64,000 bases of DNA from Pirellulales bacterium. GTDB lineage: Bacteria; Planctomycetota; Planctomycetia; Pirellulales; JAICIG01. The stretch lies in NCBI GenBank assembly GCA_025927475.1, contig JAICLL010000006.1, forward strand, positions 1-64,000, given 5' to 3'. Position numbers and translations under genes: made by a program. The notes under the pieces were generated by a model. The model saw only the letters and a program-made list of their open reading frames with translations, had not been told where the DNA came from and ran no database searches. Below, piece by piece: positions 52,223 through 54,312 of this stretch. Each line of letters opens with the position of its first letter. Positions within the stretch are counted from its first letter, which is position 1.

Positions 52223-52435
52223 ATGCCCACCGGGAAAATCAAAAAGTTGGTCAGCGACAAAGGGTTCGGCTTCATTAAGCCCGACAGCGGACCCGAGGTG
52301 TTCTTTCATCACTCGTCGGTGGCCAACGGCGAGTTCGACAACCTGTCCGAAGGCCAGGACGTGGAGTTTGAGTTGGGCGAGGCCGACCGCAAAGGCGGCA
52401 AAGGCCCGCGCGCCTCGTCGGTCAAGCCGGCTTAG
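52223..52435 (+). CDS. Cold-shock domain protein
   Basis: TGKIKKLVSDKGFGFIKPDSGPEVFFHHSSVANGEFDNLSEGQDVEFELGE. Confidence 0.95.
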   Translation: MPTGKIKKLVSDKGFGFIKPDSGPEVFFHHSSVANGEFDNLSEGQDVEFELGEADRKGGKGPRASSVKPA

Positions 52436-53014: not shown

Positions 53015-53335
53015 ATGTGGGGTTGGAAAAGCGCCGAGCGGTTGATCGAACCGAGTTTGCCTTTTACTCAGGCCAAAGAAATGCTCACTGCGCAAGGGTT
53101 TCGGCTTCACGCCTCGAATCCACACCACGCTATCTTCAAGAGCGCCGGAACCGAGAACCCGTGGACGACTCTCGCTCCGAACGGTGCAGATATGCCGATC
53201 GAACTCGCACTAGCCGAGGCTCACGGCGGGCTGTACCTGTACTTGCGGTACGAAACGTTCATTCTTTTCGACACGGGCGATCTGAATCGATTCGCCGACG
53301 AAGTCGCGGCCTCTCTTCTACCAGGGCGCGACTGA
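53015..53335 (+). CDS. Hypothetical protein
   Basis: 106-aa ORF with coding-like composition. Confidence 0.6.
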   Translation: MWGWKSAERLIEPSLPFTQAKEMLTAQGFRLHASNPHHAIFKSAGTENPWTTLAPNGADMPIELALAEAHGGLYLYLRYETFILFDTGDLNRFADEVAASLLPGRD

Positions 53336-53521: not shown

Positions 53522-53624
53522 GGACGGGGCAGGGAGTATGGGACTCGGAAAATGAGCAACTGCTCGAAGCTTCGCGGCGCCATCTGGAACGCCTTCGCCA
53601 ACACGTTGACGAAGTGAGGACGTA
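53522..53624 (+). pseudogene. Duplicated 3' fragment of the 54109-54312 gene
   Basis: About 103 bp matching 54209-54311 at a constant 687-nt offset with about 3-4 substitutions and no indels; no upstream coding part. Confidence 0.9.
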
Positions 53625-53652
53625 GGGTGGGCCGAGCGCAGCGAGTCCCACC
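53623..53652. repeat. Dispersed hairpin-type repeat GTAGGGTGGGCCGAGCGCAGCGAGTCCCACC
   Basis: GGTGGG...CCCACC arms. Confidence 0.6.
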
Positions 53653-53813
53653 TTCTGGTCGGCATAACACGGCAAGGTGCAATGCGGCCGCAAGCTCCGT
53701 GAGGCAATCACAAAGAGCAAACTCTACGGATGGCGAGCGATCGCACACGATGAGCGTTGGTGATATACTAATACTAACCCTAGTGGCTCGGTATCCATGG
53801 CGGCGACCGTCGA

Positions 53814-54111
53814 ATGCGGGAATTCATAAGCGTCGATCCGGGTGATTTGTATCTGCCACCTAGTCGCGCACAGGGCGCAGATCCGGGCAAACTTGCTCGA
53901 CAGCTTTCACGATACGGTAATTCGCTCGATGGAATGCCGCCGCTGGAAATTGTACGCGGGGAGGACGGTCACCTGCGGATCAACGATGGCGTGACTCGTG
54001 CGACCCGCGCGTCGAAGTTTAAGCCGGGGGAGTTAATTCGGCAGAGGTCATTGACAACCTGCCGAAGGTCGATGTGACCCGTACACCCAAAGTGAAGGAC
54101 GTATTGCCATG
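53814..54111 (+). pseudogene. ParB/Srx-like small protein with apparent 1-nt frameshift near 54038
   Basis: MREFISVDPGDLYLPPSRAQGADPGKLARQLSRYGNSLDGMPPLEIVRGEDGHLRINDGVTRATRASKFKPGELI, then AEVIDNLPKVDVTRTPKVKDVLP-stop in the next frame. Confidence 0.75.
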
Positions 54112-54312
54112 ACACGACAGCGCTCAGAATTACTGGCGGCGATCTCCGACTTGTGTGAGCAATACCCGCATTGGCGATTAGGGCAGTTAGTAGCGAACGT
54201 TGCCGACTGGACGGGCCAGGGAGTATGGGACGCGGAAGATGAGCAACTGCTCGAAGCTTCGCGGCGCCATCTGGAACGCCTTCGCCAACACGTTGACGAA
54301 GTGAGGACGTAA
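54109..54312 (+). CDS. Small conserved hypothetical partner protein of the ParB-like gene
   Basis: MTRQRSELLAAISDLCEQYPHWRLGQLVANVADWTGQGVWDAEDEQLLEASRRHLERL; ATGA overlap with repaired upstream frame. Confidence 0.75.
   Translation: MTRQRSELLAAISDLCEQYPHWRLGQLVANVADWTGQGVWDAEDEQLLEASRRHLERLRQHVDEVRT

Follow-up and report, generated by a model that had tools for sequence, protein, structure and literature searches.

The ParB fold binds several NTPs via its GxxR phosphate (P) motif, Box II, and single-domain proteins of this fold are thought to be capable of independent NTP binding (PMC12704722). Tox-ParB domains, which are found in polymorphic toxins, carry a DGHHR motif (PMC3482391), and orphan antitoxins are common in known toxin-antitoxin systems and in well-studied genomes (PMC7192599). 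Here, we describe a pair of small genes, A and B, that shows likeness to each of these. Protein A is predicted to share the fold and the GxxR phosphate motif of the ParB/sulfiredoxin (ParB-CTPase) superfamily, but it has no match to PF02195, no sulfiredoxin cysteine (GVTR instead of GCHR), no helix-turn-helix and no recognised partition partner. With Tox-ParB (PMC3482391) it has in common a DGxxR-type motif at the equivalent place and, possibly, a toxin-first gene order, whereas it is a stand-alone protein free of RHS or haemagglutinin repeats, with V-T at the position of H-H. Like type II toxin-antitoxin modules, A-B consists of small, co-directional, overlapping genes, is multicopy and patchily distributed, and its second gene is often an orphan; unlike them, it shows no known pairing of toxin and antitoxin folds, and no DNA-binding domain is recognised in B.

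The window, i.e. the whole stretch of 64,000 nucleotides that was analysed, stems from a Pirellulales bacterium and contains the following features of the A-B locus:

53522-53624, + strand: B', the 3' half of gene B repeated in direct orientation as a partial copy (100/103 bases identical to 54209-54311; recovered as a B match by a search of the own genome)
53622-53660, + strand: REP-type palindrome with GTAG head that abuts the end of B' (stem-loop; repeated GTAGGGTGGG head)
53814-54036, + strand: in-frame part of gene A, predicted single-domain ParB/sulfiredoxin-fold protein with P motif DGVTRATR (profile match in the own genome; model of the 62%-identical relative L010)
54044-54112, + strand: rest of gene A in another frame, comprising EVIDNLPKVDVTRTPKVKDVLP and the stop codon (reading frames; 64% identity to the C-terminus of relative L081)
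54109-54312, + strand: gene B, intact, encoding a 67-aa three-helix protein; its start overlaps the stop of A as ATGA

As judged from the reading frames, the frame of the window A changes near 54036-54041, after ~74 codons. The original frame continues with ~13 residues that are foreign to the family and ends at 54077, while the family-like tail EVIDNLPKVDVTRTPKVKDVLP is read in another frame, whose stop at 54110-54112 overlaps the ATG of B at 54109. In the closest relative, L081, the equivalent tail (EVIATLPNLNVTRTPRVGDTLP) continues the frame of the preceding part of A, so that the frame shift is peculiar to the window copy. The first-pass annotation had proposed a frameshifted, ParB-like A with an ATGA overlap to B and a duplication of ~103 bp of B at 53522-53624, all of which is borne out, by the reading frames and the in-frame tail of L081, by the fold model and its structural matches and by the near-identity of B' and B, respectively; sibling copies, which it had also considered, were found by searching the own genome. 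Chance is ruled out by whole-genome searches. A putative ribosome-binding site of B, AAGGA, lies within the last codons of the A remainder. The window locus is a damaged copy of a conserved two-gene cassette of small overlapping genes.

Elsewhere in the window, a cold-shock protein gene is located at 52223-52435 (PF00313, E 5.5e-18), an ORF of 106 aa without family match lies on the + strand at 53015-53335, upstream of B', and a G-rich low-complexity stretch is found on the - strand at position ~91, near the window start.

Protein A comprises a single domain of 99 aa. The AlphaFold model of its relative L010 (pLDDT 93) matches 172 PDB entries, with sulfiredoxin being the best (2rii, E 6e-4, TM 0.59), followed by SbnI, Atu1540, ParB, Noc and KorB, and viral ParB-type proteins are matched structurally up to E 3.5e-5. 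As the profile comparison with human sulfiredoxin was not significant, the model places A in the ParB/sulfiredoxin superfamily at the level of the fold only. The family carries a (D/N)GVTR motif, which is retained together with a GMPP loop; G61 and R64 are invariant and V62 and T63 are conserved in at least 90% of the 52 A sequences. From its position in the sequence, GVTR appears to occupy the place of the sulfiredoxin GCHR, the Tox-ParB DGHHR and the GxxR P motif of ParB-CTPases. Nearly all of the 52 members have a Val instead of the catalytic Cys of GCHR, and A is ruled out as a sulfiredoxin since this cysteine is missing. None of six A members matches PF02195, the sole PF02195 match of the own genome being located elsewhere, and a role as partition ParB is ruled out as A has neither a helix-turn-helix nor, among the neighbours judged by eye, a recurrent partner gene.

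The AlphaFold model of the window B (pLDDT 94) is all-helical and consists of three helices. The best structural match, and the only one of note, is YihD (DUF1040, PDB 2ko6; Foldseek probability 0.80, TM 0.49, E 0.52), which is itself uncharacterised; this resemblance is weak, the sequence match is not significant (hhalign P 6e-4, probability 29%), and B matches no Pfam family, YihD/DUF1040 included. A weak match to an AHJR-like nuclease was obtained for three B members (best E 1e-3), the B model being all-helical. Searches of Pfam, NCBIfam, PADLOC and PHROGs returned no convincing family for either A or B, and no family named after a toxin-antitoxin system matches them. A plasmid or phage gene was rejected as there was no match in either collection, and so was part of a larger defence system, as PADLOC gave no match.

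Searching with A relatives brought up 59 loci, almost exclusively in metagenome-assembled genomes (MAGs) of Planctomycetota; a few are labelled Acidobacteria and one Mycobacteriaceae, labels that may reflect contamination. Together with the presence of A in only 3/394 genomes sampled across the phylum, this does not support the earlier statement that the A family occurs in many bacteria. The adjacency of the two families, by contrast, stands: 54/59 A loci are followed immediately by a B relative in the same orientation, and in the remaining 5/59 either the contig stops inside A or shortly behind it, or A is degraded. At the junction the genes overlap as NTGA in 87/91 cases, and a GGAGA-like ribosome-binding site of B falls within the final A codons, at a distance of 10 to 14 bases from the B start. 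The glycine codon GGA is accordingly enriched there (32/41 in the last six codons of A vs 122/448 elsewhere, p = 2e-10). Having the translation signal of B inside A explains why the last few A codons are usually kept where A is lost. Both genes are under purifying selection, with pN/pS values, rough owing to synonymous change near saturation in many pairs, of 0.10-0.21 for A in closer pairs, rising to 0.44 in the most divergent, and, for B, of 0.12-0.42 in closer pairs and 0.12-0.47 overall, with a single distant pair reaching 0.68. The distances of A are correlated with those of B (r = 0.62 across 44 pairs; 0/5000 permutations as high), which is compatible with co-evolution and shared ancestry alike and does not separate the two. 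The two undescribed families form one coupled operon, absent from the annotation libraries searched and present in up to nine copies per genome in some planctomycetes.

Loss of the two genes is asymmetric, as seen in 20 genomes that were picked for holding A. In type II systems a toxin is not kept without its antitoxin, and likewise all full-length A genes (37/37) are accompanied by B. Only 37/55 B copies have a full A; 18/55 do not. Partial A genes without B are degraded, cut by a contig end or adjoin other A pieces. Of the 53 B loci, 37 have a full A, six an A with a frameshift or stop and seven no more than a C-terminal stub of A; three show no trace of it, and in two of these B is the continuation of an unrelated reading frame that lies upstream. 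Weighted by gene length, the probability that all 16 losses would hit A by chance is 2e-4, a value to be read with the reservation that the loci are not fully independent, that A is longer than B (99 vs ~70 codons), which makes part of the asymmetry expected, and that the loci come from MAGs, errors in which may add breaks. The genome of the window repeats the pattern: in addition to the window copy, 26 A codons are joined in frame to B in one locus (C221), only the last codons of A precede B in a second (C151), and a third retains a remnant of A without B (C238). Programmed frameshifting in A is ruled out, as the break positions differ between loci.

B is also seen in further arrangements. 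In one locus (L144:489-1154) the reading frame of the B relative extends upstream through an unrelated stretch of ~80 residues without Pfam match, a possible fusion, and in another (L016:776-1454) a solitary B has a ribbon-helix-helix and PIN toxin-antitoxin pair as its neighbour, the pair and B being encoded on opposite strands.

Three features, namely the way in which copies are lost, the coupling of the genes and the number of copies, lead us to tentatively favour a reading in which the translationally coupled A-B cassette behaves as a toxin-antitoxin-like module, A being the effector and B the antidote. The first-pass annotation had likewise considered this possible, and the findings are consistent with it. 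A would bind a nucleotide and harm some component of the cell, whereas B, which would share its message with A and be coupled to the translation of A, would bind A and restrain it. Copies would be retired by breaking A first, and the window copy, in which A runs out of frame after the phosphate loop and B is kept, would be such a retired cassette. Against this reading, neither gene matches PADLOC or a family named after a toxin-antitoxin system, B has no recognised DNA-binding domain, the strong constraint on A in most copies indicates that A is useful there, and B may be retained for a job of its own. With still more caution, we speculate that A-B could represent a new class of toxin-antitoxin systems of Planctomycetota, comprising a minimal, cysteine-less, nucleotide-using toxin of the ParB/sulfiredoxin fold and a YihD-like three-helix antidote, orphans of which are kept across genomes. 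If A was toxic, a single-domain ParB/sulfiredoxin-fold effector would join the known toxin repertoire, and stand-alone ParB-fold activity, left open in a recent survey of the fold, could be tested on a protein of 99 residues and its natural partner.

The main rival, which we regard as rather unlikely, sees A-B as a switch or enzyme of two subunits under nucleotide control, in which A would bind ATP or CTP and control the working partner B, with B acting alone once A is lost. It would account for the same loss pattern without toxicity, and it is consistent with the view that single-domain ParB-fold proteins may act as independent NTP-binding units via the GxxR P motif (PMC12704722), given the GVTR motif and GMPP loop of A, with the constraint on both genes and with the vertical retention of some copies beside the same gene, probably ilvD. 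However, up to nine copies per genome amid random neighbours would be unusual for a housekeeping switch, and the family is rare across the phylum.

An improbable alternative is that the window locus reflects nothing but routine decay of a gene pair of little importance, or that the pair is intact and was misread in sequencing, and that A-B is no more than a conserved hypothetical operon. The host assembly (6.9 Mb) is fragmented, with 316 contigs and 89% completeness, and the breaks in A are scattered in position; elsewhere, however, the pair is conserved, coupled and selected, and loss of A with retention of B recurs in several unrelated loci. The frame shift in the window could nevertheless be an assembly error instead of a mutation, in which case this copy would be intact and not retired, and the remaining findings would be unchanged. 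Also improbable is an effector/immunity pair, with A as a stand-alone cassette resembling a ParB-type polymorphic toxin, B as immunity protein and orphan B as guard against the A of neighbours: Tox-ParB DGHHR sits at the place of (D/N)GVTR in A (PMC3482391), and orphans of B are common and evolve under constraint, but A is a bare 99-aa protein lacking a delivery domain, no secretion, repeat or trafficking domain was present in the loci examined, and clusters of multiple immunity genes were not seen.

Irrespective of its function, A-B was also regarded by the first-pass annotation as a mobile or duplicating unit that undergoes decay or carries a sequencing error. Mobility in this sense is not supported: no recurring transposase was recognised among the neighbours, whose families were judged by eye, no near-identical A-B copies were seen within a genome, and some positions are conserved beside the same gene. 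The copies within a genome are old, as their A paralogs are ~50-66% identical. The genes flanking A-B vary between loci, neighbour families other than B being sporadic (at most 7/59 loci), and DNA homology between copies usually stops near the pair's own ends; three loci adjoin the same gene, read as probable ilvD. A-B as transposon cargo is rejected, as neither common flanking genes nor a transposase were recognised, while transfer of the pair between genomes is plausible. Decay and partial duplication, in contrast, are evident from the broken A copies, from B' and from partial tandem copies, which occur in the window (B' before A-B), in L088 (a piece of A after B) and in L163 (a piece of A before A-B), in the latter two beside complete or broken pairs; in L163 the A piece and B share a short downstream repeat. 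Copies of A-B have been duplicated and lost.

In the window, the end of B' coincides exactly with the head of the palindrome GTAGGGTGGGCCGAGCGCAGCGAGTCCCACC, the CGTA being common to both. REP elements are typified by a GTAG head with a stem-loop behind it. The own genome contains matches to the Y1 transposase family PF01797, which includes the REP transposases; within its two best PF01797 loci no REP copies were found. A query spanning the palindrome yielded 69 matches in the own genome, nearly all of them to the palindrome stretch, i.e. REP copies are present by the dozen, often paired in inverted orientation with 30 to 70 bp between them.
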